DNA of 64,000 bases from Cliona cf. orientalis (Eukaryota; Porifera; Demospongiae; Clionaida; Clionaidae), in the NCBI GenBank assembly GCA_963930775.1, contig OZ005690.1:14561974-14625973 (forward strand), read 5' to 3'. The position numbers and the translations under genes are program-made. Below the pieces are notes generated by a model that was not told the origin of the DNA, did no database searches, and saw only the letters and a program-made list of their open reading frames with translations. Positions 11,673 to 49,361 of this stretch are shown here, piece by piece. Position 1 is the first letter of the stretch. Each line of letters starts with the position of its first letter.

Positions 11673-11808
11673 ATTGTCACCTAAAGATCAAGAAAATTAA
11701 TGTACCTATCATTCTCAAAAAAAGAAATGTACCTATTATTCTCATGTGTTTGGGATAAAAGGTAGAATTATTAATAATTATTCTCGAAGTTATTCCAGCG
11801 TACATACC

Positions 11809-24409: not shown

Positions 24410-24735
24410 TTAAGAACATAAAAGTGCATGGTTTACTTTTTTAGCGAGTGTTTCTAGTTCAACATCGTCCAATAATTCAATTAGTCCATTCCAATCGTGA
24501 GTATACCCCTGTGGTTTCTTGTTAATGAAGTAGTCAATGAATGTTTGTCTGAGGCACTCTTTGGGATTACCATGGTATTTTTGTTCTAATATAGTCGCTA
24601 CATTAACGTCACCGCAAATTAAACTGGCAATGTTCTTCCACTTGTGGCTTGCTTCACTGATAACTCTAACTTTTTGCTTCTTCCCTTTATCGGTGTACTT
24701 GAGTATCAGCAGCTCCTCTAATGTCGGCAATTCAT
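24410..24735 (-). other. C-terminal Death domain exon
   Basis: The last exon encodes 107 residues with a Death-fold signature: KWKNIASLICGD, ILEQKYHGNPKECLRQTFID and THDWNGLIELLDDVELETLA. It ends HALLCS and a TAA stop at 24412-24410. Death domains bind other Death domains in apoptosis and NF-kB signalling. The preceding exon 25245-25110 is a Gln/Ser-rich linker. Confidence 0.9.
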
Positions 24736-27700
24736 CTGTGTACAAATGCATTATTAAGATGAGTACATGCATGTACAATACCCATAATATTATGTATAGC
24801 TAGCAATTTCAAAAGCACAACTGTCACTGATTTCTTGCCAGACCCCCTATTTCTTGTGCAAAAGATTTCGTGCGATATTAAATTTTTTTCACATGCATTG
24901 GACAAACCATCTTGTACTGTTAACAGTACTAGAGGACATAGCTAATAATAATATTATTATTAAGCTTTCACGTATTCAATTTTTGCATAAGACAGTCTAT
25001 CTGAAAATATTTACGGTGAAAATGACTCTCTGATGAGCTCAAGACTAACCTATTGGAGCTATTGTGTGCATCATGTGTGTGTGTGCGCACAGCTAATTGG
25101 ACTACCTACCAATTTTTGCTTGTTGTCCAGCAATAGAAGAGCTTAGTTGATGTTGTTTAGTTTTGGGGGTAGCCACACTGCTAATTCTCGGTGATAATTG
25201 CTGTAGTGGTTGTCTCTCACTACCAAAAATTTGCTGGCTGCTTTTCTGTACATAAAAGGTACGTAGAAACTGAATGAACTAATGCTACACTAGAGACTTT
25301 CTCATTAACTTACCATGTCCTCTATGATATTCATAATGGCAAGTGTGAATCCAAATGATACACTGAAACGTTCTAGCCGGCTTTCATTCAGGCTCAGAAA
25401 TGCATAGCCATTAATTCTGGCATCTATTAAAAATTTTTACAACCATAATATTATTATTAATTACAACAGTATTGGGTAATGTACCTCTTAATTTGCTGAT
25501 ATCTTCTTCATAATCTGTCCCACTCAAGCTGGGGTGGTGTCTTAACCACTGTGCTAGTTGCTCATTACTCATACACTTGGAGAATTCGAACGTTAATAAA
25601 TCCACTTGTTCTAGCGCTGGCGTCCGAACTGTAGGTGGGGATTGTGGCTGCTGCACACTAGCACCGATTTTAGTTGGTTGCAAGCTCACTTTCTGTGCAC
25701 ATGCATGCAATGGTATAATATTATTATTATACCTGAATGATAATAGTTACTGGTATACTACCATAAAATTTCTCATAAACTTACCATGTCTTCTATGATA
25801 TTCATAATGGCAAATTTAAATCCAAATGATACCCCAAATTGTGATAGGGTACTTTCATTCAGGCTCAGGAATACATATCCATTAATTCTGGCATCTAAAT
25901 AAAATCATTAATATCACAATCATGATATCGATATAATACTACAAGCACCTGTACAATAATTATAGCAATTTCTGTGTGCGTACCTTTTAATTTGCTAATA
26001 TCTTGTTGATAATCTGCTCCCACAAACTGTGGATGGTTAGTTAACCACACTGCTAGTTGCTCATAACTCATATCCTTTGAGAATTCCAGTGGCGGTAGAG
26101 GTACATCCACCTGTGAAGCTGGTGCCCGTGGCCGCTGCACACGATCACTGGTGGAATCTAAAATATTATATTACAGGCTAACTCCTGCAGGTACACACCA
26201 TAGTAGAGTAGACTAAGTATGGATAAAGAAAAATTTCATGCCTCTTGGAGATCAAACTGTTTTGCTATGTGATTAAATTTACGTCGCATTAGATTAATTT
26301 ACTGTATGTACCTCTATTAATATTTGAAGGCATGTAAGATAGAATGACTTTGTGTTGTGGTGGCTTAATACCATTGAGAATGACTTCATATAAAAGTTCA
26401 GGGAAGTCTTCACAGAGAGGGCGTGCCTTCAGCACACAGTTGGGTATTCCTCTACCTGGTTTAAAGTCATCAAGCGCAGCTTTGGTCACCTATACAAAGC
26501 AAATAATAAAATTTAACTTTTGTGAATATTATTATTATTGTTTTTGATTGCACAGACCATCGGTTGAGCTGGATGAATTTCCCACTGACCATCCATCACC
26601 TTGGTCCACTTTGCTGTGTCAAGCGCTACTTCAATAACTTTCCCTTCTATCTCAACAACCCTGTGACAGCCAGCAAGGAAACTATCCTCGGGATAATGCT
26701 GGCTTATATACTGCAAGTGCATAATAATCACTGATAATAAATATTATGACTACACATAGAATGACTGCATTACATTTAAATGTAATTCGGTGTTCCAAAT
26801 GAAGATTATGTGAATCTCGTGCCTCTGCTGCTGATGGCTGAGATAACTGCGGTAGAATAGCTGATTGTAGTACATTCTCTCTGAGTCTGGGTTCTCTTCA
26901 ACAACACAAACTCCAGAGAAACCTTTCATATCTATGGCTCCATAAAACGTGTCTGCATTAAAGCTAGCTCCTTTTAGTTGCTTGAACTTGTAGGGGAGGG
27001 ACTTCTGATTACAAAATGCTCGCACTATTTTAAGCTTAGAGAGATCCTGCTTAGTACTGCAATGCTGGATCTCAACTGTGATAGGCTTAATGAAGATACA
27101 CTGTGGTTCACAGCGCAGCCAAAAGAAGGCGCTGACTAGACTAGTATTCTCAGGGATCTCATAGTCCCCAGCAAGAGAAGCTTTGATGAAAATAGTACAT
27201 TGCTGCAAGTCTTCTGATATGCTGCCTGCATGGATATGAAGCTTCAAGCCATTCCACTCGACAAGCTGACCTTGAGAAGAGTGTACAACCACACTTGTTT
27301 CATCACACACTTCTACACCAGGTAACTTCCATACACCTATGAAAGAAGGGTACATGCATTTTTAGCATCATAAAACTTCGAATTCATTCAAAGTTGAAAT
27401 GAAAAAAATGCAGTGAGAAGACTATGAGAATAATTATGCCATACCTAACTTACTAGGCAGCTGATTTATTTCTTCTGGCTGTTGTACAAGACTTTCAGAT
27501 GAAGTTCTTCTTGCTTCCAAAAACTCCTCAATTAATTTCTTTTCTTCCAGGCTATACTCTTTTCTCAGTCGCTCCACTTCATGACCATGAGCACTCTCGA
27601 TATTTCTCCTATAATAATATATAGAATGATGTGATAAATATTAGCTGTGATAGATTAGCAAACTCTTCTCACCTGTAATCAAAACTAATAGCAGGAAGTA

Positions 27701-30700
27701 CTTTCCATGTCTCTTTACACACTGGGCAAGAGTGATTATTATTTTTCCACATGTGAGCCAAACACAGTTGACAGAAGGTGTGTCCACAGGAGAGGGTGCA
27801 CGGATCGACATGGATATTTAGACACACTGCACACTTTGTACAATCAGCAACAACTAAAAGCAATATATAGTAGCAATCGGCATTAAAGCTTTGGTTAAAC
27901 ATACATTCATCATAGCATATAGAATATAGGGGTAAAGGCATGCATATAATTATACTATCAGTGTTACAAACATGATCTCAATACCTAATAATGATAGCAA
28001 AGCATTCTTCTCTGTGAATGTCAAAATTAGATCCAGTGACCAAGATTCATATGAGCTCAAATTTAATTCCTTAGCAGTAATTCTATTTTCTAATAAGATT
28101 AAGATATTATTATAACAACATAATAAAATGTAACATTGTGTATTTCTATCCTACCTCTCAACTTCTTACAGACATCATAATAGATGCCATTGGCATTGAG
28201 GTAGAGTAGAAACTGTCTGTCGCTCATTTCAACACTAAAATCTTCAGGAGGTTCTATACAGTAGGAAGTCATTCATTTCTTAAAAGTGGGAATATACTCT
28301 AACGCTATAATCATTACATTTGTGATTAGTTTACCTGGTATATCTAGTTCCACTTCAGCTGACATTGATACTACAGGTTGACTCGATGTTGAAATAACAC
28401 AAAGGTAGGTTCCAGCATACTTGCTCTCAAAACAATCAATCTTTAGAATTTTTGAGTCACTGTTTTTGTAACATTCCTCATCCTCAATTTTTTCTTCCAC
28501 TTCATTGATAATTCTTGACCACTGGTACTTGAGCTGATTACTGCTTGAGTTGGTCATGAACAAGTGGTCTGTAGATAGTTCAACAACACTGCCCAAGTCC
28601 TTTGTCTGATGATCATACGGTTCCTATAAAGACAACAAAAAGTGAAATTTAGCAATCTGATAAAAGCATACATTCATTGTATTAATAATTTCTCTTGCCA
28701 CTTACCCTGAACCATACAATTACAGATTGTTCAGAAGTGTCCACAGTAAGTGGGTGTGGTCTGTTTTTGTCTAATAGACAATTGGCCTTAATTTCAATCT
28801 TCTTTTCATGTGGTTTGCTTTCAAATTCCATCACATGTTCCAATTCTTCTCTTCCATGCAAGGTGCATTGACAAGCAACTGTGTACTCTTTCAGAGATGC
28901 ATTTAATGAGTTGGAAATGACTGCTCCGATATCGTTCCAAACTTTTTTGCAAATGTTGCGACCATCGGTTCCGAGCTGGAATGGTTCTTTTGAGTGAGTA
29001 TGAACAATATGAATTTCATAGTATACTTTGGTTGATACTAGGGTCACAAAATATTTCTTCTCATATGCTTGAACGATAAAAGTGGCTTTATTTCTCCAAT
29101 AAATCTTATTTTCAGTCATCATCTGTTCCTTTTCAAGCGGAAGTTTCCATTTTCGATCGGATATCAACCTTGTGAAGAGGTAGCAGAATCCACCCATTGG
29201 GGAAAACCCACACTTGAAGTATATTCTGAGAGGTATGATTGAGCAGGCCTCTCCATTTCGTAGCAGCAGTTGGAGCTCCTCTTGTTGAGCATCATTAAGA
29301 ACAGCAGGAATTATGAATTCTATATTATCTGATTCAATGCTTTGTGATGAATGGTCCTCATCCTTAGGCTGAGCTGAAGAATCGTCTGACTCACTAAACT
29401 GAACTGGAGCAATGATTCCAAGATGCTGAAGTATTATTATTAACTGGTCAATCAGAAGCTGACATCCTTTATTTATTGATTTTGATTTGCAGTGTTGCTT
29501 TAATTCCTGATACATGAATATTCCCCATTTTTTCAACTGCAAGGATCGCACTGTACTGCTTTTAGTGAATGAATTGAAAATGAGTTCTGATATACCTCTG
29601 TACACGACTGAGGGATCACAGATGACTATGTCCTCAAGTTCACGTATTTCTGGGAAGTACATCACAATTCCGAGGATCTTATGGAGACGAGATAGCAAGC
29701 TCTGGAGCTGTGTTTCTTGGATGTACAACTTGCTAGCAATCTGCTGACAATGGCTATATCGAAGTACTGAATGACCGATGATTTTCATTCTGCGCAACAC
29801 AATTGAGAACATATACCATGATGGTGGCAGCTTTTCAGATTCTGGACAAGAGAGCTTATTTTCCGCAATATCCAAAATCACTTTTCGATAATCCTTGGGC
29901 TGGTTACTACACCTCTTATTTTTTTTTATGCTCACTTCCAGCACCATCTTATCTTTTTCTTCATCTGCAAATACGAGGCCACTTTTCAGGAACGGTTCCA
30001 CTTTCTTACTTACAATACTATTAACATTTTCTACATGTTGAGGTTTAACTGTATCAACATGTGTGCCAACGAGTAGGGCCACGTTATCTTTCGATACTGA
30101 GGATGTGCTTGATACACAGATTAATGATTGCATTACTATGTCCATCTGTTCGTAGAATGTGCCAGTATGTACTTCCACAGAGGCACCTTGCTGTTGAACT
30201 GTCTCAAGAATTCGACTCTCAAAGTGCTCGTATGAGAAGAAAAGAAGGTAGAGTGCTTTGCCCACTGTCACTGTAGGAAGCAGTTCTAAGAACGCCCTTT
30301 GACCTCCAGTATCAATCAAATGACAGATTTTCTTAATAAGTGGGATATTGGTCGGTATCTTTTCACCTTTTCGTAGGAGACTAGTTAATTCGCTGAAATA
30401 TTCATCAATTTCTTTAGAAATTTGTTCAATTTCTTGCTTTTGGGCTGCTAGTAACTCTTCATCAATAATTTCACGATATGCAAACTTTACTGGTACTCTC
30501 CGTTCATTTTCATTCGTCCAAATCTGGCTGGCAGTGCTGGCTTCAAGTTGCTGATTGGTATCAAGATCAGTGGTATATGTCTCATATTGGCTCGAGTCAT
30601 ATTCTTTAGAAGGGGTCTGAGTGATATTTGCTTGTGATCGATTACTTTCCTCGCTGTCTAAATTTGAAGGCACAGTCGATTCTTCCCCAGGGGAAGTAAT

Positions 30701-33700
30701 CAATGATTCTGAGGGCACCACACTCTCACTTTGACTTGAATCAGTCTGTGTGGGACCTGCTTCTAAAATACGCTTGTATATGGTCAGTGCTTCTGTTGTG
30801 AGATCTTTAGTATCCGTTTCGCAGTACAAGTGCAAATCAAGAAGCATTTCTGTGTTCATGTGGGCTGAGAGGAAATGTGACTCTGCTACTCCAGTGCTTG
30901 TTGATGTCTTGCTGGGCTTAAAATCCTTCATCGCTAATCGCTTCCAGAAGGTGGTCTTTCCTGATCGCGGTACTCCACTCAATATCATCTTGAATACTTG
31001 AAGTCGGACTTCAGCTTTTTCGTTTCTTAATGTACTTTCGTAGACATTTTTATACACGTGATCCTGAAGCTCTTTGATGCCTATTATGCAGATATGTATA
31101 GCTATAGCCTTGTCACAGCAATGCATGGAGTGTACCTGGCTCTCTCTTCTCTCAATGGATTCCAGGCTTACAGCTATATTATATAATTAACACCGATAAT
31201 GTAAGCTTGACTGCCATACGTAATATCAGTGAATGCGTTTGCCACAAATGCAGATCTCTCTATGCTCAATGCTATTTACTTTGAATCAATATGTTAACGA
31301 ATGTCGTCTAATAACTTGAATCAATAAGTATACGTTAACCAATCTCGTATAATAATCCATTCCTAAATTAGCATGCACAGCACAGTGAAGCCAGACAGAA
31401 AATACATTCTGAATTAGTATCATGATCACTGTTATGCGCAGGATCTTGCGCAGGCTACAATGCTTTCTCTTATATAATATCATGACTTAGCCTTGTATCC
31501 TAGGTAACAGCCACGATATAACTACCATATACCCCAGCCCTCAGGCATTATAGCTCCCTACTCCTGACAATAGTCCAATAACACAGTTGCACTGGCATAC
31601 CAAGTTTATGGTCAAGATATTAAACAGATAAACCAGGATACATCATTCATATACCACCTTCGCTCTCGGGCTACGCCGTCGAGCTCAGGGTGGTATATAA
31701 ACGGTATATCCTGGGCAACCATAGTTTATCTATTACTTATATGGCGAACAGTGGATCATGATGCAAAGACCATTATAGTTGCTAGAGTAAAAGACTTCAA
31801 AAACATGTTCTGGTAGAGCACCCATGGGTGCTTATCCTGCCTACAGTATAATTCTTCTGGGATCCCTAAAGTCAAGCTAGCTACATCTAAAGATTTGATG
31901 CAAGATAGTTACACAGCAATAATAAAGCATCATTGTGTAAAATCCTGCATGAAGCCAAAGAACTCCATGTCTCATAAACGTATGCGGTATATACTACAGC
32001 ATGGTACATACCTTGGTTTTTAATAATTCCAGCTAGTTCTCGCTGACCAATCTGTTGCAAGCACTCCACCACCCTTTTCTTAGTGATCACAGGTTGGTCA
32101 GCAATAGCTGTCTCAAAATATAAACCAATATTGTTTAGTTTATCCATATACTCCACTAGCACGATGTTGAGTATTCTCAGTTCATCAGCTGTCAGCGGTC
32201 GACCTGAATGGTTTGAAAATGCCTCGGATTAGGACTAACTTTAGCTACTACAAGTGAATTAAGCCTTACTTTCATATTTGCGTTGAGGTGTAAGGTCATC
32301 AAAGCAGCGATCACAGACTCTTGCAGGCTTGGATGATGGGTCAGTAATGGATAACTTGTGCTTGGAACAGCTATCGCACACTTGAACAAAGCATTTATGG
32401 CAGTAATGCTACAGAAATGGTACAATTACTACATGCATGCATTATAGATTATAATTAGGCACATGGACAGACCTGTCGTCTATAAAGAGTAAATTTCCTG
32501 CTGCACTGTGCACATTGATCAGCTGTACATAGCATGTATTGTATGCATGCATGATTGTGTATATAGATGTGTATATGGATGTGTATCAGTGCTTGTGTGT
32601 GCATGTGATGCCACATGTACAGTATAGTGGGCAATTTGTGGAGTGGTATTTTTTTATGAAAAGTGAAAACATTAATACCGATAATTTCTCAATTCCACAA
32701 GGCACATTGGTATCTTTTCCTACATGTAGCCCATGACAAGAACTAATTTTACATTACCCCAAATTTTGCATTCCTTGAGGGAGGAAATAAGCAAAAATAT
32801 ACTCTACAGGTACTGGACTCAAGATACCAAGAGCATGTGCCATGGGTGGGTATTCATAGGCCACTATACTACAGCCATACTGCTTCATTTTCTCCATACA
32901 TATTACTAAAAGGCATCTATTGATTCGTAGCATAAAATAACTAATGAAATAATAGCAGTAAATGTGCCTAGAAATTGATGCCTAGAAAGGATGCGAGCAA
33001 TGTACAGGAAATAAGGAATTAATATACAAGTCATCACCTGCAAACTTGAGTAGACTAATTATTTTTGAGTCTTTTGCTATCTGGAGTGGTCTCTGACGAT
33101 TCTGTAGCAAACACATAGGTAAATCAAAGCACACAAAAATGAGCACCTATTTAAACAGTTAAACAAATTAACTACCGTATATGTTCTAATATAGGCGCCA
33201 CCCTAATTTAGGCGCCCTTTGAGACCTGCGCAATTTTTTCGGTTCTAATTTAATTAAGGGGCCTTTCCGGACATCAATTATTTTTAGGCGGCGCCTATTT
33301 AAGGTTACGGGATAGTATTCGACGCGCAATTTATAAATGATTGTGCATGGACACAATTCACGTATGTTTTAATGCGGTTTAGTCGGGAACGCGAACGAAC
33401 GTCGACCATTTTCCAGATGCAAACAAAGTCCAAGTTCCTGCGTCAAATTTTGAAGACCAGAGACTCGAACGAACTGACTTCGCTGTTGTTCACGCTAGTC
33501 CATCGATCGGAGCAGGGCCAGGTATAGCGCTTTTTCGAAAATTCTAGGACGGTGAGTCGTCAGACAAGGTTTTGTCCTGGAGGGCCGCCATTAAGCGAGT
33601 CACATGGCAGCTGAGCAGTAAGTTTTTATGTTCGCTTTCTGTTCGTGTAACTCGATAGAGTTCAAACGCTATACCTGGCCCTGTAGAGGCTCGTAAGCTA

Positions 33701-36700
33701 TCGTTTCGTTTGTATATCATTACATAGAGGCTGTTTATCTTGGCAAAAACTGACGCAGGAAATTGCAAAACTTACCCGCGCTTGCAGACAGACAGTGGCA
33801 GGTTTGCTTTTCGTTTTTGTGGACCATGGGGCAGGCATCAGGAGAGCTACTTACCTGTGCCTTGACTGTGCAAAGAACGTGGACAAAAACTGGAATATAA
33901 CTGTCTCATTTATTATTCATGTGAACTTTGACCATGCGTGGGCGGAACACTATCCCGTAACCTTAATTGGAACGTATTGCCACATGCAATATGGCAATAC
34001 CGGTACCGCCGTATATATATATAGGCACCAGGCCCTTTCTCCTCCCCCTCGATCAAAGGGCCTGGGTACGAGGCTATACCGTACCGTACCGTACCGTCGA
34101 TCGATCTATCAAGCTAGCAGTTTAGATGTCAAACTAAGCTGGCTCTTACAATTATATGGGCACTTACCGACTGCTTTGATGTCTTTCTGAAGTTAGAGAT
34201 AATCGTTCTGATGGCTACGGTATCCACAAGTTGAGAATAAATTAAGCGATCAGAATGAAATTTCCAAAAAGAACTGAAACTAGAACCATATTTTTGTTGT
34301 TCTTGCCAATGTCATATTTACTGCCACTAAATAGGACCGATTTATAGTGATAGCGCTTGTGCTCTGGCAAAACTTCCAGAACCGTTCTAATTGCAGCTCT
34401 TAGGCGCCCATTGACCTGTTCGTGAATTTTTCAGTTCTAATTGGAGGCGCCTGCACGATCTGTGATTATTTTTTGGGGGTGCCTATATTAGAAAGTACAT
34501 GGTAATTATCACAAATAGCTATAATTATGTATACACACACTAATACTGCATGTAGAGAAAATCTGCCATTCCATTAGAACAGTTCACAGTATATAGACTT
34601 TCTTCCATACACTGTGAGTATCTACCAGCCACACCCATCGACCACACCCACCCACTGACTGGCCGACCAATCAGCATGTGCAACTAACTTCCTCTCAGTA
34701 CTCTGACAGAGAAGATGGCAGAGCTCACATTGTTTTCGATGTTCACATTGGCTTGGGACAGCAGAAGCTGCTCCACCACTTTAGAGTGACCACGGTAAAC
34801 AGCCCGATGAAGAGGAGTGTTGCCATGCTGTGAGAAAAGTTTAGTAACTGGTCTAAGATTATTGACATATCCATGTTATAATTTTTACAATACCATTTCT
34901 CATACCAAAATTTGTAATATTGCATTCCTACTTGATTATTGTGTATTCAGGCCTAGGACATTAATGTATTCATAATTTAATAATATACATCCTGAGTCCC
35001 AATTCCAAAATCGATTCGGCCGACCAATGAGGTAATTAATAATGACGAAAGTTATGATGAAAGTAATGATGAAATAATGATGAAAGTTATAATGAAAAAC
35101 TTAGAGACTACGTCCAGAGTCCCTCATGAATACGCCGCCATAAATAAACACATTGACAAACTGCGCATGCTCCGTATACGCATACAATATTGGGGCGCGC
35201 GGCTTGAGCCGGTTGACCTTCACCTGCCATGTGCTCAACTGAATAGGGAATCCCCCTGCTCTGAAAGCGAGCTCGCTAGAGAAAGCGAACTGAGAGAAAC
35301 GCCATAATGATATCATCGGATAGTCCACGATCTCTTCTACGCTAGGTTCGAATTCTGGGTCCCAACAACCTTTCATGCGCACTAAACATTTTGAAACAGT
35401 TTTCACCCTAATTTCATCATAATTTCATCATAGGTTTCATCATTATTCATCATAATTACCTCATCAGTCGGCCGAATTGCGTATCGATTTGTGAATTGGG
35501 ACTCTGGACGTAACGTAATGAAATTGTGATAAAATTGGGGTGAAGACTATATACTTCAAAATGTTTAGCTCACAAGACAGGGTATTCGGACCCAACCTAG
35601 CGTAGAAGAGATCATGGACTATCGATGATATATGGCGATTCTCTCAGTTCACTTTCTTTGGCGAGCTCGCACTCGGGGGGATTTCCCTATTCAGTCTAGC
35701 ACATGGCAGGTGGAGGTCACGTCCGGGTCAACCTGCTCAAGCCACACGCCCCAATGCATTACAAGCTGAGCGCTACTTTCTCTGCACTGAGAAGTACCAT
35801 TGGTTGAACTTCACATGTTTCTTGGCTTATGTATTGCCATGGATAAATAAAGCTAGCCTTGCGCTATATATAGCACGCATCATTGTCACAAGGGGCTGGC
35901 CCGTGCAGGACTGAAGCAGCACGACCAATCTAAAATTTGGAAGGAATACTGTGCTATCGAGTTCGTCTCTGTGATTGAAGCATCGATACTTGTCACTATC
36001 AAGGTTGAGACTCGATCTTAGATGCCATTTCCATGATTTCTTGGGCCAGCATCGATCGATGTGTATGCATTCTATTGACGACCTTTTACCACATGCACCA
36101 TTATACTATGCAGCTACTGGGGATATGGTCAAGTGTTCATTATATTCTAAAGGAGAGAATTACAGTTATCCCCATTTGAAATGCATAAAATGTGACCTAC
36201 TTATTATCAACTATGTGGGTATACCCAGTATTATCCACACAGTTGATAATAAGTAGGTCACGTAAGCAGAGCTGACAGAAGGTGCTCGTGAAAAACTTCT
36301 GTTTAGGGAGCAAATCTTAGGTTTATTGTTGATAGTAACTTCCCTGGGCCTGGGGACAAGGATAGTCACTGAGCTGACTGTTCAAATTAGAGCTGAGTGG
36401 CCACGGTAAGGCTAGTTAAATGACGAACTAATGAGGGGCGTGGCTAAGACTGTTACCTCATCCTGGAATCAAGATAGAGTGGAGTTGGCATATTTCGAAT
36501 AGCTAACGAAAGATAGTGCTATATCACTAACAAAACGAATAGCACTAAATCCCGAATATGCAGCAAGTAGTCCACCCTGCATGTGGCTCCACCCACCTCC
36601 GATTGTGCAGGGTGCAAGTATAATCTCGTGCCCAGCCCCCTTTCATGCAAGGGGGCTGGGCACGAGACTAGTGCAAGTATTGCATGCTGGTTCTGGAGGT

Positions 36701-39700
36701 AGAGAGCGGATAATGGTGCATGTCATTACCGGATGAGGGTGAAAAAGAAAATACTGCTGCTATCATGAATAAATAACTCATAAATGGCATTGATGAATTA
36801 TCCTAAAGAGGAATAAAAAAAAGAGAACAGGATCAAGTATAAAAAACAATGAAATTGAAGGATGAAGTAGGGATGGCAGGGTCAAAAAGTACACAACCCA
36901 GATTGGTAGTGATAATCACCTTCACTATACATCCCTACGCTTGCTTTTTGAGTAGGTGCAGGAATTAACTAACCATGCAGGCAGTAATGTGACGATAGAA
37001 GCTGACTAACCCCCCCCCCCACCCCTCTATGAGAAAGCATAGTGGATAAGATGAATTTCTCCCACATGCATAGGATTCAAACTAAGGATATAGCACCAAT
37101 GGGTCACCATCAACAGGTGCATGATACCGTAGGTCGGGTTTTAATTGTGAGTATCTATTAATTGCGAATTGCGAGTTTTTGTACGTTTCGCAATTAACAG
37201 ATTTGCAAACATAAACGTGCACATATACTACAGTACAGTACGGGGTCATCTATCGCAATTATTGGATTCGCAATTTGGCCTGACTTGACTGCAATTATTA
37301 AACTACGTAATTAGCTAAAACCTGTGCTACAGTAATTGAAAAAAGCAAGCGTAGGGATGTATAGTGAATGTGATTGTCACTACAAATCTTGTTTGTGTAC
37401 ATTTTGACCCTGCCATCCCTACTTCATCCTTCAATTTTATTGTTTTTTATACTTGTAAATATTTAGCATCATTATGATGTTAAGCCTTGGACCCCTCCCC
37501 CCCTTATAGTGTCATGGCAAAAGTAAATGATACTGGGACTTGAAGATAGTGGCAGATATAATCCAGCTTAGTAAGGAAAATTAGCATCATGGCCCTGACC
37601 CCTCCCCCTTAGCATCATAAAGATATGTTTTTCTTAAACAGTTTGGAAGTGTCCCCTAAAAATAGTAACTATTATGTTTCTAAATGGATGCACTTGGCAG
37701 TAATACAACTAATTGCTGAGCTCCTTAGCGTGAGACATCTAATTCAGCCTCTGTCGCTCTCTCAGATTATTTGTCGTATGTGTACATCTGGTCGTCACTC
37801 TTTAATCGTTTCATGGGCAATGAAGCCTTATATTATTATTATGCTTTACATCACCATAAATCTAAAGAATTTTATATGATAATAAAACATTAGTGTAGAA
37901 AATCTCTATTGCTCGAACTCCACCTATGAAACTTATTTTATTCCAATTTTTTTTTCTCTATATGGATATGCGTCTATCAAAAAATTCAATTTCAAAAATA
38001 TCCAGATTTACGTATATAATAGTGAGGTTATTCAATACTCACATTTTCTTTAACATTCACATCGGCGTGAGACTGCAACAGTAGCTTCACCACTTCAAGA
38101 CGACCATTCCAGGATGCATCATGAAGAGCTGTGTTGCCAGACTGTGGGGAAAACAGTATAATAGTAATAGTGACACTTATCGCATAATATTATTATTATC
38201 AGTATCATCATGTTGGTATAAATTTCTCCCTGGCAAATAGCCTGCAGCACTCTCCATGCGTCAGTGACCCACACACTGTGAACCTGATGACCATGCACAA
38301 AGCTAGTTACACAAAATGCCCCACCCACCCAACTGGCCGACCACCTTAATTGATCTAAACTGAGAATACCATTCTGTGCTAGGCACACCATGTGATATAT
38401 TATAGGCTTTGACCATGCGATAATGCTAAAAAATTGCCTATCATACCTCTATGCTCAGAATTCTGCCTATTATTCCAGAATGCCTGCAAAACAGTCCCTA
38501 TTATGCTCGATTATGCTTTTGAAAAGTGGTCAAATCCATAAAAACACAAACTTAATTAATTATATAGCGTCATCATCTTAAATTGTACTGACTAAATTAA
38601 TTTTGAGAACGAATTTGACAAAACAGGTTCTGAGCTACCTTTCAGAGCTAGTACATTTTATCAGATCATGTGATCAAGATCAAACCACACCCTATAACCA
38701 CACCCCAATTTCCCTAACCGCACCTTCAAATTGGTAAATCTGAGCCTATTACGCCAGCATTATGGCTAATGCCACCAAACTTGTCTCTATTATTCTAAAA
38801 CTATGCCAGCATAATCGGTCAAGGCAGCTGACCTAGTGGTATACTGCATAACCGGGAATATTAAAATTAATTGAAAGTTGTTTTGCAATTTTAATTTCGT
38901 GTGGCAATTAATATTTCCAGATTTACATTATAAGGAGAGAATGGAGTGAATGGTACTAGTGAGGTGATTCAGTACTCACATTGTCTTTAACATTCACGTC
39001 AGCATGAGACTGCAACAGTAGCTTCACCACTTCAGGGTACCCATTCCAGGATGCATTGTGAAGAGCTGTGTTACCAGACTATGGGGAAACAGTATGAAAG
39101 CAATAGTGACACTTATCACATATCGGTATCATCATGTAATTATTTCTCCCTGGCAGATAGCCTGCAGCACTCTCCATGCATCAGTGACCCACACACTATG
39201 ATGACCATGCACATAGATAGCTACACAGAATGCCCCACCCACCCAACTGGCCGACCACCTTAATAACTAGAGCTCTATAGAGCACATACCCCGCGCACAC
39301 ATTGCGCAATCTATAGATTTGCTTTTGTTGCTGGTTGGTTGTATCAGACCCCGAGAGCCCTTGGTTTTAATAGCTATAGGGCTCTTAGTGATATCAGCCA
39401 AAACACCACTGACTCTCTCTCTGCACCAGATGTAAACTAGGTACATTCTGATTCGATGGGGCTTTGCATTCCAGTCAGTGGATACCGTAAATCGCGAATA
39501 TTTCGTTGTTAAAATATTTTCGGACAGCCTGGCTTATACGAAAATTAAACGCACGAAAATACATGCGCAATATTAACGATAATGCGGTACAGGGTCGTTT
39601 GTCCGAAAATTATTTAACATGAAAATTTATAGCATGAAATATTTTAGACACGAAATATTCGCGAATTACGGTATATAGCTTACCAGCCAAACGTGTGCCA

Positions 39701-42700
39701 CTAGCATTATTGACGACCTTTACCAGTACATAATATTCAATGTTATGCGCATGAGCAGAAAGCACAAGGCCTGCATGCATAATGCATTGAGTGGGCACTG
39801 TCAATAGGCGTGGTTACGAAGGCTAACAGAAAGGCACCATTTGTGACGCTTGTGGACCATATTCCCTCCATTCGAAGCACACTGAAGCCCGTTTTTCGCC
39901 AAATTCGACTGATTCATTGTGCTTACTAGTCGCTCAGGTGCCTAGACCTCCAGATATGGCGATTTTTCTGCTAACAACGACGACGACACGACCGATTACT
40001 TTACCCCTTGCGCATGCGCGCGGGGTAATAATTGATCTAAACCAAGCATACCGGCACACCATGTGGTAGCCAGTAATGAGTGGTTGGGCTACAATCAAAA
40101 ATTATTTTAAATGTTTGTGCCTCTGGTGGCAATGAAAACACTAATTTTTAATAGCAAATATTTCCAGATTTATGTTATAAGGAATGAATGGTACTAGTGA
40201 GGTGATTCTCTACTCACATTGTTTTTATCATTCACATCGGCATGAGACAATAGTAGCTTCGCCACTTCAGGATAGCCATTCATGGATGCATTGTGAAGAG
40301 CTGTGTCTCCAGACTGTGGGGAAAACAGGTCAAATACTATTAGATATTAGCTACATCATGGGAAGATTTTATGTGACTTATTCCATGGGTTAATCATGGG
40401 AAGATTTTACGTGACTTGTACCGTAAAATATGTCCCCATGATTAGATCAAGGTACAAATCACGTAAAATCTTCCCATGATATAATCATGGCAATTTCTAT
40501 ACTTTTACATAAAGAACTGTAGGACCGGGAAAACAGTATGAAAGCAATGGTGATACTTATCACATAGCTATCGGTATCATCATGTTGGTATAAATTTCTC
40601 CCTGACAGATAGCCTGCAGCACTCTCCATGCATCAGTGACCCACACACTATGAATCTGATGACCATGCACAAAGCTAGTTACACAAAATGCCCCACCCAT
40701 GGGTGATGACACACCGTGTGGTAGCTGGTAATAATTACTAGTGGTTGGGCTACAATCAAAAATTATTTTGCAATTTATTGCCACAGTGGCAATGAAAAAA
40801 ATTATAAATAGCAAATAGATTTACGTAATGAAGAGTGAATGGTACTAGTGAGGTGATTCTGAATCAGTACTCACATTGTCTTTAACATTCACATCTGCAT
40901 GAGACTGCACCAGTAGCTTCACCACTTCAGGGTGGCCATTCCAGGATGCATCATGAAGAGCTGTGTTGCCAGACTGTGGGGAAAACAGTATAATAGTAAT
41001 AGTGACACTTATCGCATAATATTATCAGTATCATCATGTTGGTATAAATTTCTCCCTGGCAGATAGCCTGCAGCACTCTCCATGCATCAGTGACCCACAC
41101 ACTGTGAATCTGATGACCATGCACAAAGCTAGTTACACAAAATGCCCCACCCACCCAACCGGCCGACCACCTTAATTGATCTAAACTGAGCATACCATTC
41201 TGTACCAGGGACACCATGTGGTAGCCAGTAGTACTAGGAAGATGATATCATCAGGCAGGGCGAGCCTTCGCTCGTGGCATCAGCTGTACTCCAGTGTTTT
41301 TATTTGTAAAGGTAATCAAAGTGTTATTAACAAAATACCTTGGTTTTGAGTCACTAACTGGGCAGGCTAAGCACAACCAAATGACCGAATTGGAGCACCC
41401 AGGCTCTCCTCAGTTTGGCAATGGTATGATTCTTGACATTCTTGAGTTTGGTATTAAAGTCGGAGAAAGGTACAGCTCTACAACTGAAAATAGTGCCAAC
41501 CATGAATGATTGCCACTGCCATGGCTAAAACTCGAGATCAATAAGGTTGAAAGTTAATAAACAATAGCTTGTGACGAGAAGAGAGTTTATGTAAGACCAG
41601 TTGCGGCGCGAACGTTTATCTCATGAATATCATTAACGAGCATACATTGCTATCCGCCATTTTGGAGGTCAAAATCCTACAGCAGCCAACATGCAACATG
41701 CGAAGCGGGTGAAGAATGTTTAGTGTGACCATGGGGAGGGGAATATATAATCTATGGTTTGATCTGTTCTCAGTGTGAACTTCTTGAAGCGATGCCACTT
41801 ACTTGCGTGGTTGTAAATTAAAGTGCCATAATAGGGCCAGTCACAAAGATTCATATCAGGGTCAAGTTCTTCCGTTTTCCAGCTGAGAGAGAGGAGCGTG
41901 AAGCATGGATTTCCGCCATCAACCGAAAGAGTTGGTCCCCAACGGAGTACAGCCGTCTTTGTAGTGCCCATTTTGTCTCAGGTAAGGCCAGATTTACTTG
42001 ATATTGAGCTAGCACATCCCATTAGCCCATTACAGCCAGTTTATCAGTCTTGTCCTGTCATGATAAATTTCGACCCCCCCCCCCTTTTTGTTCCCCCTGG
42101 TCCATATATTTCGAAATATTTGGACCCCCCGGCCCTCATATTTCCAAAATATATGGACCCCTATGCATATTATCAACTATAGCAGAGACTTAGAAGAGTC
42201 AGGGGCTGGGTTCTGGGTTAAATGGCATTGTTAGTTTCCAGGGTTTGTATGGCAGGGTTAGTCTTCAGGGTCTGCATGGGGATCCAAATATTTCGGGGGT
42301 CCAAATATCTCGTGACAGTCCAAGGCATGTTTCTTCACTTTATGTCCTAGGAAAGCCTTCAAAGGATAAGTCACATCCTGACTACAAACCATCACTTCTA
42401 CTTGGGCAGTGCCAGCCATGTAGCTACCAATGCATCAACCCCCAGCACGAGTTTGAGCTGACATTCAAGATTGGCAGAACATAGGAAGAGAGCTCGAGAT
42501 TCTAGGCCCTGGTTCAGCTAAGTATCACTAAGCAACTGCGCATCGAAGGAGAGAATGAATACGAAGGTGAATCTCTCAGTGGTGGCGATGCTCCTTCTAG
42601 AGCAGATGACGATCCCACTCTAAGTGGTGGTGATGCTTCTCCTAGAGCAGATGACGATCCTGCCACTTCTGCTGGGTTAGTGTCTCAGCTACAGCAAGAC

Positions 42701-45700: not shown

Positions 45701-48700
45701 GGAAAAATGTGCCTAACATATTTGGCCCTCCGAAGGAGATTTACGGATAATATTTGGTTAGTGATGCACTGCACAGCCTCTACACTCAACTTCATATGGA
45801 TGTGCATGACTGGATAGAGCGCACACCCTTAACCGAAAACATTACTCATTTAATGTGCCTAACATATTTTGGAGAGCCATATTATCTTATGAAGCCATAA
45901 TAAAGGAAGTATTCATGGTTGCACCCCATAATTTAAATTCTAAGTAGAGTTTATGTTGAAGAAGATTCGTACCAAATTTCAAACTCTTATCTGTAATAGA
46001 TTTTATTTTATGAGTTAAAATAGGCTCAAATTCTGAAATAAAAAAGTTTTGCTCTCTTGCTTGGTTGCACTGCATGCAGGTAAAAATGCAGGGGGATACT
46101 TATGCGCAAGGGGGGGGGGGGGGCGTAATCGCGGGATTCTACGGTATATACACCATACACCACTTCCGGTTTCTCGTGTATTCGGAGCTCGTGCGATCGC
46201 TCAGGCCATAGATAATATAGTGCATAGGCTCCAATTTTTCCTGAACAGCTCCAGGGACATAGACCACACCCACTAGATGTGGCCATCATTAATTAAAACT
46301 CCACCTACATCACACCCAATATGATTAAATTTGATGACCACAATGCCACAATACACTTTCTAGAGCATGAATTTGCAAGCCTAGTAGAGCTCTTGTAGTG
46401 TTGCTACTGCAAAAACCAAAGTTTGTAAGGCACTACCACAAGAAGGTTGTTTATTTTACCACCAATAAGTGATTAGTTATACTATTACTACAGTGTTTGT
46501 GCTAGTGTCTGGACCTCTTCCGGGACCAATAATACAATTATAGAAGAGGTTTCCGGGACGCGGGACAATTGCTAAAAATCCGGGACTGTCCCGGAGATTC
46601 AGGGACAGTTGGAGCCTATGATAGTGTGTGTAGTCTAAATTATCTATGCTCAGGCTCGCACCGAATTAAAATTACTAAGTGGTTGGGCTACAATCAAAAA
46701 TTATTTAGCAATATTATTTTAAATCTTTGTTGCCTCATATGGAAATTTCAATAACAAATAATATTATTAATTTACGCAATAAGGAGTGAATGGTACTAGT
46801 GAGATGATTCTCAGTACTCACATTGTTTTTAACATTCACGTCGGCGTCTGACTGCAACAGTAGCTCCACCACTTCAAGGTGGCCATTCATGGATGCCTCA
46901 TGAAGAGCTGTGTTGCCAACCTGTGGGAAAAATAGTACGAAAGCAATAGTGACACTTAATTATCACATAATATCAGTATCATCATAATTCGCGGCGAGCC
47001 TGAGCGAGCCCGAATACACGAGAAACCAGAAGCGGTGTATAATATTTATATACCGTATTTTCTCGCTATTAAGCGCATGCGCTTATATCTCCACAGGAAG
47101 AAAACCTGCGCTTAATAACGAGGTGCGCCTATAACAGCGAGATGCGCCAAACAAAAAAATAGCTACTTCAAGAACGCATGCGCGTTCGCGGTATCATTTA
47201 AGGGGCGTGGCCAATCGATCGACGTTGCCCAGGTCGAAATGGCGTTCGTTGCTGGAAGAACCTGAGAATCGACAGTAGCCATCATAATTTCTACTAACTT
47301 GAAAAGGTTGGAGCCCCGGGCAAGCTAGCAAGCGTGCAGATATCGAGGTCAATGGTCACATAATATCAGTATGCGCTTATATGCGAAATGCGCCTAATAA
47401 TGAGTGCTTAATAGCAGGCGCTTAATAACGAATATGCGCTTATAAGCGAAATGCGCCTAATAACGAGAAAACACGGTATAATAATAATATATATTTATTT
47501 ATTTGCGCGTGATCTTGCATGGCAACGACTCAATGCGCATGCTCAGACACCACGTGGTAGGCCTTACCGTGTCAGGTAAAGGTCGTCGTCAACGCGGATC
47601 GAAGGTCAAATCCGCGGAATCCAGAGGAGGTTGGCCATGCGTCATCAAATGTCACCAATGTGTCACGTGCACCAATATAAAATGTATAGAAACATATGGC
47701 AGGTATTAATCACGCACTCCTGCGCTTCGCGAAGGATGCCGTTGGGAAAGAACTCGGTGAGCCTTGATAAATGAACCTTTCAACCCCGTTCAACCCCTGC
47801 CAAATAAGCGAGATCCGAGGCTTTGTTGTCGTTCATAATGAATCAAAAGTCAGCATTTCAGGTTGATTAAGGCTTCGTTGGTCAGTTCTCCCTCTCAGAA
47901 TTTGAAATCGGGCTAAGAAAGTTGTCTTTGAATAAATCTGCGATCGAAACAAGTATAGTACTAAGTCGCTAATGTATGCAGGAATGCTAATTTTGTCACG
48001 TGCACATGACGTATCATGATGCGTGGCCAACCTCCTCTGCGCGGAATCTATGGTGGCAGGCAGTGCAGTGTGGCTCGAGCTCAAGAGATATACAAATCTG
48101 CGCCGTGGAGCGTGTTATTGGGTAACTTTCGACCTTATTCATCTCGAGTTGTAGCCATGGCAGTGGCACTCGTTCACGATTGGCACTATTTTCAGTTGTA
48201 CTGTAGCTACAGGTAGCTAGAGCTGGGCCTTTCTCCACCTAGCCTCGTACCCAGGCCCTTTGAGAAGGAGGAGAAAGGGCCTGGTACACACTGTACGCGC
48301 ATGCGCGAGGTTTACGGAGCATTTTCTAGTATAATTCGCCGGATATTGTCGCTACCACGCCGCAGTCGGACGTGTACGGACAACGTATACCGTATAGCCG
48401 GAAAATTTGGCGGGGAATTAAATTTGGCGGTTTGGCGGTCTATATTATTACAACCGCCAAATTAAAATCCGCCAAAATTTCCTACTCGCATATATACGTA
48501 TGGCGATCCCGTACCGAACCGCCAAATTTAAATCCGCCAATATTCTTCTAATAGCGATTTGGGGCTCAACCGCCAAATTTAATGCCCGCCAATATTTCCG
48601 GCTATACGGTATTTTAATATACCAAGCATCCCATGGCATCTGAAGTCGATGAAGCCTACAGACTGGATATTTCTAAAGAATATCGTACGGAAGACTTTCT

Positions 48701-49361
48701 TCGCTCTCATTTGACTTTAAACAAACCTTCTTGAGCTTCAGAGATCTGACAAAGTCCCTTCGCTGCCGTTGGACAACTGCCTCGGTGTCGATACTTCAGA
48801 TTTATTCATAAAAAAAGTCGACTAAACGTGAGTCGATGTCCTTCTCATAGCTTCTTTATTATTCTTCTATCGATATTGCTCGCTTGTGATAGCTAAATTG
48901 GTGGTATCTGAGCAATAAAGCGAAGAATCGATACAAAGAGAAGCTCCAAGCAGTCGGTCTTGGTATCCAAGACGATCCTTACAAGCCTGAGAACGGCAGT
49001 AGGCGTAACTTGAACGTCGACTTCGGCCGCTTAGCTAATTAGCGCCACGGGCGGAATCCCTCTATAGCGAGGGATTCGATCAGTACTCACCATGTCTTTA
49101 ACATTCACATTGGCATGAGACTGCAACAGTAGCTTCACCACTTCAGGATGGCCTTTCCTGGATGCCCTGTGAAGAACTGTGCGGCCATACTGTGAGAAAA
49201 ACCATAAAAGCAATATTGACACTTATCATATATATATCAGTATCGTCATGTTAATCTAATTTTATCCCTGGCAGAAAGCCTGCAGCACTCTACATCATCA
49301 GTAACCTATCATAATGTATTTTTATTACGTATACAGCAGCTATTATTACCTTAGTTGCCAT
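24410..49361 (-). CDS. Composite ANK-FYVE-ROCO-Ig-RING-ZU5-SAM-SAM-Death signalling protein
   Basis: Very likely an intracellular receptor or scaffold linking a GTPase switch to ubiquitin ligase and Death-domain outputs; function is inferred from domains only. Exons (minus): possible 12-nt start exon 49361-49350, 49189-49091, 46920-46822, 40973-40875, 40313-40218, 39078-38980, 38141-38043, 34827-34729, 33101-33038, 32522-32473, 32408-32270, 32203-32012, 31080-28706, 28623-28335, 28253-28155, 28089-27985, 27853-27673, 27608-27445, 27336-26774, 26710-26558, 26489-26312, 26157-25984, 25894-25785, 25692-25485, 25423-25314, 25245-25110, 24735-24410. Every join keeps frame with GT-AG borders, giving about 2,105 residues: ANK 5-255, FYVE 256-318, helical 319-382, Roc-COR 383-1174, Ig 1175-1270, SAM-like 1271-1338, RING 1339-1399, coil 1400-1453, ZU5 1454-1641, extension to 1751, SAM 1752-1846 and 1847-1952, Death 1998-2105. 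The least certain points are the start exon and the join 32012/31080, across an intron of about 930 bp. Confidence 0.85.
25314..26157 (-). other. Tandem SAM domains (four exons)
   Basis: Each SAM domain is split over two exons at the same place and phase: 26157-25984 with 25894-25785, and 25692-25485 with 25423-25314. The halves read MSYEQLAVWLTNHPQF plus ARINGYVFLSLNESTLSQFG, and MSNEQLAQWLRHHPSL plus ARINGYAFLSLNESRLERFS. The matching split and similar introns show that one exon pair was duplicated in tandem. SAM domains commonly form polymers, so they may drive oligomerisation of the receptor. Confidence 0.9.
26312..27336 (-). other. ZU5 domain exon plus C-terminal extension
   Basis: Exon 27336-26774 (563 nt) encodes a ZU5-type beta domain: LVEWNGLKLHIHAGSI, CTIFIKASLAGDYEIPENT, KPITVEIQHCS and GFSGVCVVEE. 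Exons 26710-26558 and 26489-26312 continue with DGQWEIHPAQP and a conserved-looking strand-rich segment that may take the place of UPA, though I cannot show UPA homology. In UNC5, ankyrins and PIDD, ZU5 precedes UPA and Death; here two SAM domains sit between. Confidence 0.85.
27445..27853 (-). other. RING finger exon and following coiled coil
   Basis: Exon 27853-27673 has a complete C3HC4 RING: CTKCAVC, then C..SCGHTFCQLC and CPVC. This is the E2-binding fold of ubiquitin ligases, so the protein may ubiquitinate itself or its partners. Exon 27608-27445 follows with a charged heptad-like stretch (EVERLRKEYSLEEKKLIEEF), probably a coiled coil. Confidence 0.92.
27985..28253 (-). other. Small helical (possibly SAM-like) region, two exons
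   Basis: Exons 28253-28155 and 28089-27985 encode about 68 residues including MSDRQFLLYLNANGIYYDVC and SSYESWSLDLILTFTEKNAL. The arrangement of helices recalls SAM or related helical folds, but no diagnostic motif is present, so the name is tentative. Confidence 0.5.
28335..28623 (-). other. Ig-like domain exon
   Basis: The exon encodes about 96 residues with an Ig fold signature: a B/C-strand YQWSRI and an F-strand KYAGTYLCVIS, with a lone LKIDC before it. There is no signal peptide or membrane segment around it, so this would be a cytosolic Ig domain, as known in MALT1. It joins the Roc-COR exon in phase 0 and the next exon in phase 1. Confidence 0.82.
28706..31080 (-). other. Roc-COR GTPase exon (single 2,375-nt exon)
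   Basis: One exon encodes a ROCO module of about 791 residues. A P-loop LSGVPRSGKTTF lies near 30976-30950, a switch II DTGGQ near 30313-30299 and a G4-like GTHVD near 30067-30053. After it comes a COR-type region (LPPSWYMFSIVLRRM, LLSRLHKILGIVMYFPE). About 215 residues separate the P-loop from DTGGQ, of which roughly 100 are Ser/Thr/Gln/Glu-rich, an unusually long insertion for a Roc domain. An in-frame ATG at 31126, just upstream of the acceptor, could give a separate N-terminus, but phase 1 entry at 31080 matches the upstream exon exactly. Confidence 0.93.
32012..32203 (-). other. Helical linker exon between FYVE and GTPase
   Basis: The exon encodes about 64 residues with regularly spaced leucines and isoleucines (LTADELRILNIVLVEYMDKL) and ends ECLQQIGQRELAGIIKNQ. 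I do not recognise a named domain; the pattern would suit a small helical bundle. It enters in phase 1 from the FYVE exon and leaves in phase 1 into the large exon at 31080, which is the join that makes one gene out of the ankyrin-FYVE and GTPase halves. A disrupted paralogue is at 2743-2530. Confidence 0.75.
32270..32522 (-). other. FYVE-type zinc-finger exons of the composite gene
   Basis: Two exons (32522-32473 and 32408-32270) join in phase 0 to give eight cysteines in the FYVE spacing: CAQC, then YRRQHYCHKC, VCDSCS and RVCDRC. The RRxHYCHKC stretch corresponds to the basic R(R/K)HHCR motif that contacts PI3P on endosomes, and RVC is also a family signature. The N-terminal WxxD motif is absent, so it is FYVE-like and lipid binding is not assured. 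The paralogous exons at 3081-3035 and 2945-2801 keep all eight cysteines. Confidence 0.88.
33173..34504. mobile_element. 1.33-kb element with TCTAATATAGGCGCC ends
   Basis: The ends are TACCGTATATGTTCTAATAT and the inverse near 34480-34504, with GGCGCC-rich subterminal repeats. It lies between the last ankyrin exons at 34729 and 33101. A partial relative (GGCGCC, CATTAGAACGT) runs off the window at about 63860-64000. I see no coding region inside. Confidence 0.72.
34992..35770. mobile_element. Nested foldback elements
   Basis: One element (34992-35511) has ends GAGTCCCAATTCCAAAATCG / CGATTTGTGAATTGGGACTC and ATGATGAAA repeats. A second pair of arms (about 35160-35420 and 35520-35770) shares the left arm's interior and pairs outside it, giving a hairpin of several hundred bases. 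Probably one foldback inserted into another. Confidence 0.7.
36621..36670. mobile_element. 50-bp palindromic insertion, same family
   Basis: The palindrome begins TAATCTCGTGCCCAGCCCCC and ends with the inverse, flanked by GTGCAAGTA at 36612-36620 and 36671-36679 (9-base target duplication). Confidence 0.9.
36831..37456. mobile_element. 625-bp element with 120-bp inverted arms
   Basis: Arms at about 36831-36955 and 37338-37456 are inverted copies (AGTAGGGATGGCAGGGTCAA in the left arm and its inverse in the right). Lies in an ankyrin intron of the composite gene. Confidence 0.75.
39286..40027. mobile_element. 740-bp element with TACCCCGCGC ends, holding a nested element
   Basis: Inverted ends TACCCCGCGCACACATTGCG and its counterpart near 40005-40027 (GCGCATGCGCGCGGGGTAA). 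A second element with ends TACCGTAAATCGCGAATATT is nested at about 39484-39673. A related right end occurs at 24000-24107, just downstream of the composite gene. Confidence 0.7.
41792..43558 (+). pseudogene. Decayed THAP plus DDE (Harbinger/ISL2EU-like) transposase
   Basis: A THAP zinc finger begins MPLTCVVVN at 41792, hits a stop at 41819-41821, and resumes in another frame with VKFFRFPAEREEREAWISAI and YSRLCSAHFVSG up to 41980. A coiled segment lies near 42720-42840. From 42896 one frame carries a DDE_Tnp_4-type nuclease: first acidic IDTE at 43073-43084, then a stop at 43085; SNYKKVLIGIAPTGAITFIS; LAD at 43253-43261, then a stop at 43262; and IHVERVIGQLKNKYKIL near 43400. It ends at 43558. 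THAP plus DDE_Tnp_4 is typical of ISL2EU/IS4EU DNA transposons. Several stops and frameshifts show it is dead. Confidence 0.85.
44662..45122. mobile_element. 461-bp inverted-repeat element, likely parent of the tiny palindromes
   Basis: Terminal repeats of roughly 80 bases beginning TAGTCTCGCGCGCCAGCCCC, flanked by ACCACGTGC at 44653-44661 and 45123-45131. The termini and the 9-base duplication match the 39-51-bp palindromes, so these look like internally deleted versions. Confidence 0.85.
45382..46072. mobile_element. Tc1/mariner-like non-autonomous element, copy 2 (inverted)
   Basis: A 691-bp relative of the element at 23228-23930 in the opposite orientation, with the same terminal repeats. 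It is preceded by TA but followed by CA, so one target copy has mutated. The interiors align along their length as reverse complements. Confidence 0.9.
47051..47479. mobile_element. MITE family with AAGCGCATGCGCTT repeats, copy 1
   Basis: About 430 bp, beginning TACCGTATTTTCTCGCTATT and ending with the inverse. The interior repeats TTAAGCGCATGCGCTTA-like palindromes. Lies in an ankyrin intron of the composite gene. Confidence 0.82.
48267..48293. mobile_element. Partial TAGCCTCGT-family palindromes
   Basis: A decayed hairpin at about 48239-48293 shares the arms CTCGTACCCAGGCCCTTT and AAAGGGCCTGGTAC. Related partial copies lie at about 34025-34075 and 44252-44300. No target duplication could be defined for these three. 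Confidence 0.6.
48388..48611. mobile_element. MITE family A (TACCGTATAGCCGG), 5 copies
   Basis: A 200-225-bp element with terminal repeats TACCGTATAGCCGGAAA and an interior of alternating AAATTTGGCGG/CCGCCAAATTT blocks. Other copies: 13684-13898, 18703-18922, 21569-21793 and 60079-60272. All lie in introns or intergenic DNA of the two duplicated segments or their flanks. Confidence 0.9.
48633..49040 (+). pseudogene. Unrecognised coding-like fragments
   Basis: A frame opens MASEVDEAYRLDISKEYRTE at 48633 and stops after about 33 codons. A second, starting near 48902, reads NKAKNRYKEKLQAVGLGIQD and stops near 49040. The composition looks protein-like, and the two pieces could be exons or debris of a mobile element on the opposite strand to the host gene, lying in its first long ankyrin intron. 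I cannot name the family. Confidence 0.35.

Follow-up and report, generated by a model that had tools for sequence, protein, structure and literature searches.

An expanded tandem family of large ROCO proteins in the sponge Cliona cf. orientalis: candidate intracellular recognition receptors

In this work we describe a gene for a large ROCO protein in a 64,000-nt stretch of the genome of the sponge Cliona cf. orientalis (assembly GCA_963930775.1, contig OZ005690.1, positions 14,561,974-14,625,973; hereafter, the window). On the minus strand, from 49361 to 24410, 27 exons with GT-AG borders and agreeing phases were spliced to yield a single continuous frame of 2,102 residues, which supports a single protein-coding gene. 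A sequence-only reading of the same DNA had counted 26 exons and about 2,100 residues; it was right about the common strand, the GT-AG borders and the phases, and missed one exon. The sister copies described below show that the gene belongs to a tandemly expanded family whose body is under purifying selection.

The gene and its domains

The exons support the following domain order: start, ankyrin array, FYVE-type zinc finger, X1, Roc-COR GTPase, Ig, X2, RING, charged segment, ZU5-like, UPA-like, SAM, SAM, Death. In the list below, the seven numbered ankyrin exons are all of phase 0-0 and were assigned from the gene model, Pfam and exon comparison.

49350..49361, minus strand: start exon encoding MATK, 12 bp, donor phase 0 (gene model; counterpart in sister p13)
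49091..49189, minus strand: ankyrin exon 1, 99 bp
46822..46920, minus strand: ankyrin exon 2, 99 bp
40875..40973, minus strand: ankyrin exon 3, 99 bp
40218..40313, minus strand: ankyrin exon 4, 96 bp
38980..39078, minus strand: ankyrin exon 5, 99 bp
38043..38141, minus strand: ankyrin exon 6, 99 bp
34729..34827, minus strand: ankyrin exon 7, 99 bp, a divergent final repeat
33038..33101, minus strand: ankyrin C-terminal cap exon (gene model)
32473..32522, minus strand: FYVE-type zinc finger exon 1 (Pfam FYVE, 50.9 bits across both exons; present in 8 of 9 sisters)
32270..32408, minus strand: FYVE-type zinc finger exon 2 (Pfam FYVE; profile search of the genome; sisters)
32012..32203, minus strand: X1, a conserved block without fold assignment (sister conservation)
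28706..31080, minus strand: Roc-COR (ROCO) exon, 2,375 bp, with the GTP-binding motifs GVPRSGKTT, DTGGQ and THVD
28335..28623, minus strand: Ig-like domain exon (Ig_3 in relatives; conserved Y.W and G(T)Y.C)
28155..28253, minus strand: X2 block exon 1, SAM-like by eye only (sister conservation)
27985..28089, minus strand: X2 block exon 2 (sister conservation)
27673..27853, minus strand: RING finger, C3HC4 with full ligand set (Pfam zf-C3HC4, 1e-8)
27454..27608, minus strand: charged segment, by eye perhaps a coiled coil (gene model; conserved in sisters)
26774..27336, minus strand: ZU5-like domain (Pfam ZU5, below cut-off)
26558..26710, minus strand: UPA-like region exon 1, assigned from position only (gene model, sisters)
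26312..26489, minus strand: UPA-like region exon 2, assigned from position only (gene model, sisters)
25984..26157, minus strand: SAM 1 exon 1 (Pfam SAM_2, two stretches in the model)
25785..25894, minus strand: SAM 1 exon 2 (Pfam SAM_2)
25485..25692, minus strand: SAM 2 exon 1 (Pfam SAM_2)
25314..25423, minus strand: SAM 2 exon 2 (Pfam SAM_2)
25110..25245, minus strand: linker exon, donor phase 1 (gene model, sister splice borders)
24410..24735, minus strand: terminal exon, Death domain type A (AlphaFold, fold comparison, relatives)

The 12-bp start exon, doubtful at first, is backed by p13, the copy next to this gene, which carries MAKKLTM ahead of a donor sequence identical to that of the window gene, GTAATAATAGCTGCT, the size difference being a multiple of 3. 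No start block of the MATK/MAKKLTM type was recognised in the 5' DNA of p10 and p11 that was examined.

The domain calls of the sequence-only reading fared unequally. Pfam bore out the ankyrin, FYVE-type, RING and SAM modules, fold recognition the Roc-COR part, relatives the Ig domain, and AlphaFold together with fold comparison the Death domain; ZU5 stayed below the Pfam cut-off, and the assignments of UPA and of two helical blocks are tentative. The key residues of the Roc motifs are invariant or nearly so in a 53-row alignment. Pfam placed Roc at 1.1e-4, under its cut-off, and the structure model of the Roc part is of low confidence; the Roc-COR fold was recognised, and COR directly follows Roc, as membership of the ROCO proteins requires. 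The Ig_3 profile matched in 22 of the 32 members scanned. The complete set of C3HC4 zinc ligands makes the RING finger a predicted E3 ligase. The type A Death exon was modelled by AlphaFold with a pLDDT of 94.8, and Death-domain folds came top in the fold comparison, which places the C-terminal exon in the Death domain superfamily.

Sister copies and the integrity of the gene

A FYVE search of the animal's own genome (216.8 Mb, 149 contigs) returned 48 matches. Besides the window gene, nine of them on one contig (C2) were taken as sisters, p09 to p17; the DNA around each was compared exon by exon. FYVE, X1, ROCO, Ig, X2, RING, charged segment, ZU5, UPA and SAM follow one another in identical order in p09, p10, p11, p12 and p16, with the first of the two FYVE exons not found in p11. 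Where the compared DNA ends sooner, the order is kept up to that edge: from FYVE to UPA in p17, to the charged segment in p15, and to the first part of Ig in p13, the copy that shares the window with the gene described here:

2525..12700, minus strand: second, neighbouring copy p13, with a start exon at about 12.69 kb, ankyrin exons, FYVE and X1; its ROCO exon and the start of Ig lie beyond the left edge of the window

Members p16 and p17, from a second cluster at 10.2 Mb, possess an extra pair of SAM-like exons between the charged segment and ZU5, which the window copy lacks. The pooled ratio of nonsynonymous to synonymous substitution rates (dN/dS) of the window gene against the nine sisters is 0.20-0.29, calculated from the best match per exon, with SAM exons possibly mispaired and p14 covered over 156 codons only.

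The comparison bears directly on the question of whether the DNA holds one gene or two adjoining genes, i.e. an ankyrin-FYVE gene that stops at about 32 kb, followed by a ROCO-to-Death gene with its start at the ATG at 31126. In favor of two genes, an open frame that includes an ATG precedes the ROCO acceptor in the window copy, the public prediction for this exon (P0001) has 814 residues compared to the exon's own 791, and poly(A) hexamers occur in the longer versions of the X1-ROCO intron (1 in p11, 6 in p12, 16 in p13, 12 in p15, 2 in p16 and 1 in p17). However, this ATG is unique to the window copy: none of the eight sisters with a ROCO exon has an in-frame ATG there, and in all eight the frame upstream of the acceptor closes with a stop after 7-14 codons. 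The X1 donor (32012) is exactly placed in eight of nine sisters (in p12 the GT lies one codon further), the ROCO acceptor (31080) is present in eight of eight, and the intron is of phase 1 throughout. Moreover, the window copy, p09 and p10 all lack poly(A) hexamers within this intron, which measures 301 bp in p10. The next border, 28706/28623, recurs as well (donor in 7 of 8 sisters, acceptor in 8 of 8). Thus, the claim of a single gene made in the sequence-only reading is upheld, the second start that could have split it being absent from the sisters, and we consider two separate genes very improbable.

More generally, where the model predicts splice borders in the sisters, 105 of 115 acceptor places carry AG and 102 of 111 donor places GT (excluding a stray RING match of p14). 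The misses fall where alignments stop early or exons differ, and they cluster: in the first FYVE exon (p09, p10, p13), at the RING acceptor and where the charged segment ends (second cluster, p15-p17), and at the UPA end and the second SAM (both in p10, p16 and p17).

Relatives were also found among public predicted proteins: at least 327 of the ROCO exon (7,990 candidates scored), 192 of the Death-A exon and 79 of the Ig exon. Among 120 listed ROCO relatives, 46 are 70-100% identical over at least 97% of the exon and many others about 50%. In a tree of 55 ROCO exons (8 from the own genome, 47 public) the window copy groups with p10, p11 and p12. On public contigs of at least 30 kb (58 with ROCO, 22 with Death-A and 14 with Ig matches), where contigs were equated by identical size in bp, eight are common to ROCO and Death-A and 12 to ROCO and Ig among the matches listed; two Ig contigs lack a ROCO relative among the listed 120 of 327, and one of the 58 ROCO contigs (53,575 bp, P0075) has a counterpart in neither the Death-A nor the Ig set. 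The size key correctly puts the window gene (P0001) and p13 (P0023) on one contig. Three of the contigs common to ROCO and Death-A (676671, 935234 and 1256692) hold ROCO relatives that are just 46-50% identical, and the linkage is therefore probably old. Two Ig exons (P0273 and P0317) lie in public records labelled as metagenome-assembled genomes of Proteobacteria bacterium, which suggests host DNA inside bacterial bins.

The ROCO genes of the window alternate with two copies of an AP-2 alpha-adaptin gene, at about 62.8-49.87 kb and 22.0-13.4 kb, both on the minus strand. All eight adaptin frames scanned matched Adaptin_N, Alpha_adaptinC2 or Alpha_adaptin_C, one of them below cut-off, and other frames were assigned by eye. 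By eye, AP-2-like frames were seen also downstream of p10; the repeated unit may comprise AP-2 alpha and ROCO together. Between exons of the second adaptin copy, short tandem repeats at 20.2-20.7 kb and 19.25-19.58 kb translate as runs of the VGDD and SPTSSP type.

Death tails, ankyrin exons and the proposed function

The family ends in two kinds of Death exon, which occupy one place and phase. Among the copies whose tails were compared (window copy, p09, p10, p11, p12 and p16), type A terminates the window copy, p11 (97% identical) and p16 (70% identical), and type B, a different Death domain, follows the second SAM in p09, p10 and p12. The two type B copies scanned match Pfam Death with 24.9 bits (p10) and 27.1 bits (p09) at a cut-off of 22.6, and that of p12 is 86% identical to that of p10. 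By eye, type B is likewise preceded by a linker exon and starts at phase 1, like type A.

At the other end of the protein, each of the seven ankyrin repeats of the window array is encoded by its own exon of 99 bp (96 bp in one case), of phase 0 at both ends. The stretches of about 120 bp upstream of the ankyrin exons are 73-85% identical among exons and copies, and the duplicated unit therefore includes intron. A transposase frame (DDE_Tnp_4, 54.6 bits), which we take to be of the PIF/Harbinger type, lies on the plus strand at 43265-43555, in the intron that separates ankyrin exon 2 from exon 3. Six copies yielded 40 candidate repeats from 5' DNA that may not span the whole arrays; 36 have both splice sites and no stop, and 34 of these comprise 33 residues. 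In these 34 exons the entropy peaks at positions 10 (3.35 bits), 13, 3, 2, 5 and 14, and its mean is 2.04 bits at the ligand-binding positions of designed ankyrin proteins (2, 3, 5, 13, 14 and 33) compared to 0.80 elsewhere (permutation p 0.001). The numbering of the repeat and the inclusion of position 33 in this set are our assumptions; here, position 33 is largely conserved, and position 10, the most variable, falls outside the set. Positions 2, 3, 5, 13 and 14 are randomised in designed ankyrin proteins according to residue numbers in PMC3602593. At the six positions the pooled dN/dS is 2.85 (bootstrap 1.49-8.84) against 0.42 in the rest and 0.64 for the whole exon, as counted by the pooled Nei-Gojobori method over 30 array exons with 200 resamplings, four divergent exons having been dropped by their framework residues. 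These values point to diversifying selection on the putative binding positions.

It could be argued that ankyrin variation reflects merely relaxed constraint after tandem duplication, and that the single gene encodes a signalling or trafficking scaffold, an expanded regulator of the DAPK or LRRK kind. Drift is common in tandem families, conservation extends over the repeat framework and the remainder of the protein, and the FYVE-type finger, the RING and the adjoining AP-2 alpha genes would suit trafficking. However, at the binding positions dN is above, not equal to, dS, and the signalling exon comes in two kinds; we regard the scaffold as rather unlikely.

We consider it probable instead that the product of this single gene of the tandem ROCO family is a receptor, most likely for intracellular recognition. 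As the best reading by analogy, its working principle would be like that of NLRs or the brown-algal leucine-rich repeat (LRR)-ROCO receptors, and the earlier suggestion of an immune or cell-death receptor is plausible and gains from the ankyrin pattern and from the existence of two kinds of Death exon. According to this scenario, the groove of the ankyrin array would bind variable ligands, and binding would free the Roc-COR GTPase from a closed state, allowing it to switch. It would also free the Death tail via the ZU5-UPA-like part, as in the autoinhibition of ZU5-UPA-Death proteins. The SAM and Death modules would next build a signalling platform, and the RING finger could ubiquitinate either the ligand or the platform. 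Targeting to a membrane by the zinc finger would be the weakest step.

It is noteworthy that tandem clusters, variable ankyrin arrays and Death tails are equally suited to allorecognition, i.e. to discrimination of self and non-self between individuals, or to a receptor of symbiont tolerance, and that suicidal responses are discussed for allo-incompatibility of colonial animals, including sponges, in PMC8195603. On the other hand, the present data fit a pathogen receptor just as well, and a role in allorecognition or symbiont tolerance in place of pathogen recognition appears improbable to us.

Several observations weigh against the proposed recognition receptor and must be set beside it. The gene model was derived from genomic DNA. 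The ZU5-like part scores 18.8 bits in the window copy, 20.4 in p17 and 15.6 in p10 at a Pfam cut-off of 21, and no PDB sequence match to any ZU5 protein was obtained; the UPA-like region, X1 and X2 yielded neither a Pfam match (to UPA in the former case) nor a useful PDB match. The canonical lipid pocket of PI3P-binding FYVE domains is marked by the motifs W..D and R+HHC+xCG. The finger described here has the eight cysteines and RVC, but W..D is absent and the basic motif is replaced by RRQHYCHKC. Since these motifs are only partly kept, the endosome attachment postulated in the sequence-only reading is weak, and attachment to a membrane through this finger is doubtful. The sisters were chosen by their FYVE match, and family members devoid of FYVE would be missed. 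Not every copy need be active, because p09 has a frameshift in ROCO, p13 an in-frame stop in one 5' ankyrin-like exon (10760-10858, minus strand), and p14 displays only FYVE and X1, with no ROCO in the following 9.2 kb, owing either to a longer intron or to a broken copy. In p13, two or three splice sites are also off the expected place, which may reflect decay of this copy or a different mode of splicing. At very small dS, a few short exons (X2b, SAM2b) exhibit dN/dS above 1. As for the ankyrin exons, entropy alone proves nothing, because ankyrin binding surfaces vary within most proteins, and the estimate of selection is a pooled count on short exons, made without a codon model; among 20,000 randomly drawn sets of six codons, 593 reached the observed ratio and 81 the observed dN. 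Finally, 14 of the 22 public Death-A contigs lack a ROCO relative among the listed 120 of 327.

It is tantalizing to consider a broader hypothesis, to which we assign slightly less than an even chance: that a ROCO GTPase here replaces NACHT in an animal receptor system, with interchangeable phase-0 ankyrin exons (99 nt, some 96), RING and two Death tails in one chain, evolved in parallel to the brown-algal LRR-ROCO genes. Any subset of the phase-0 ankyrin exons stays in frame, and alternative splicing could therefore multiply the repertoire. If the hypothesis is true, sensor, GTPase switch, RING and death-signalling tail are united in one polypeptide whose sensor diversifies by exon duplication, and animals and brown algae reached variable-repeat ROCO receptors separately. 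To our knowledge, the natural ligands of ROCO proteins are mostly unknown, and this would be a ROCO family in which ligand binding is directly testable.

Comparison with known systems

The sequence-only reading knew of no described family with this domain order, and among the hits listed from open-licence PubMed Central texts, a part of all hits, we also found none. Within that literature the architecture is new; the working principle resembles that of known repeat-GTPase receptors. DAPK1 comprises a protein kinase, ankyrin repeats, Roc-COR and a C-terminal Death domain, and thus shares the latter three elements in the same order. However, Pfam detected no protein kinase across the whole model, which sets it apart from the DAPK family, and the FYVE-type finger, Ig, RING, ZU5-like domain and two SAM domains are additional, as are the tandem family and the variable repeats. 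As a group, LRRK2, LRRK1 and C. tepidum Roco possess LRR, kinase and WD40 elements, none of which is present here, where the signalling end is a Death domain. PIDD1, UNC5 and ankyrins combine ZU5, UPA and Death, and the sponge protein likewise has a ZU5-like region and a later Death domain. On the other hand, two SAM domains intervene, ZU5 falls under the Pfam cut-off, UPA is unrecognised, and the GTPase and RING share the chain.

Among sponges, PMC6208332 lists ankyrin, Ig and Death genes among the responders to microbial patterns in two species, and PMC8195603 reports expansions of the TRADD-N and Death-like kinds in a sponge, together with bacterial conflict systems that have the same GTPase as their basis. 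The NLR repertoire of Dysidea avara, as presented in PMC12909245, is similar in being a large receptor family with variable repeats and, in some members, Death domains; there, NACHT and LRR go with an N-terminal Death domain, whereas here Roc-COR and ankyrin repeats go with a C-terminal one. By Pfam, neither NACHT nor LRR occurs anywhere in the model, which excludes it from the NLR family and, with ankyrin repeats in place of an LRR sensor, from the brown-algal LRR-ROCO proteins. Nonetheless, the latter provide the nearest parallel. PMC11378527 describes genes with a ROCO core and one repeat per small exon of fixed length and phase, subject to exon shuffling and to selection for changes on the concave binding face, whose products are proposed immune receptors; in all these respects they are like the family described here. 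The repeats differ (LRR in 72-bp phase-2 exons there, ankyrin in 99-bp phase-0 exons here), as does the remainder of the chain, which in the brown-algal proteins, as described there, is confined to LRR-ROC-COR and lacks FYVE, Ig, RING, ZU5, SAM and Death.

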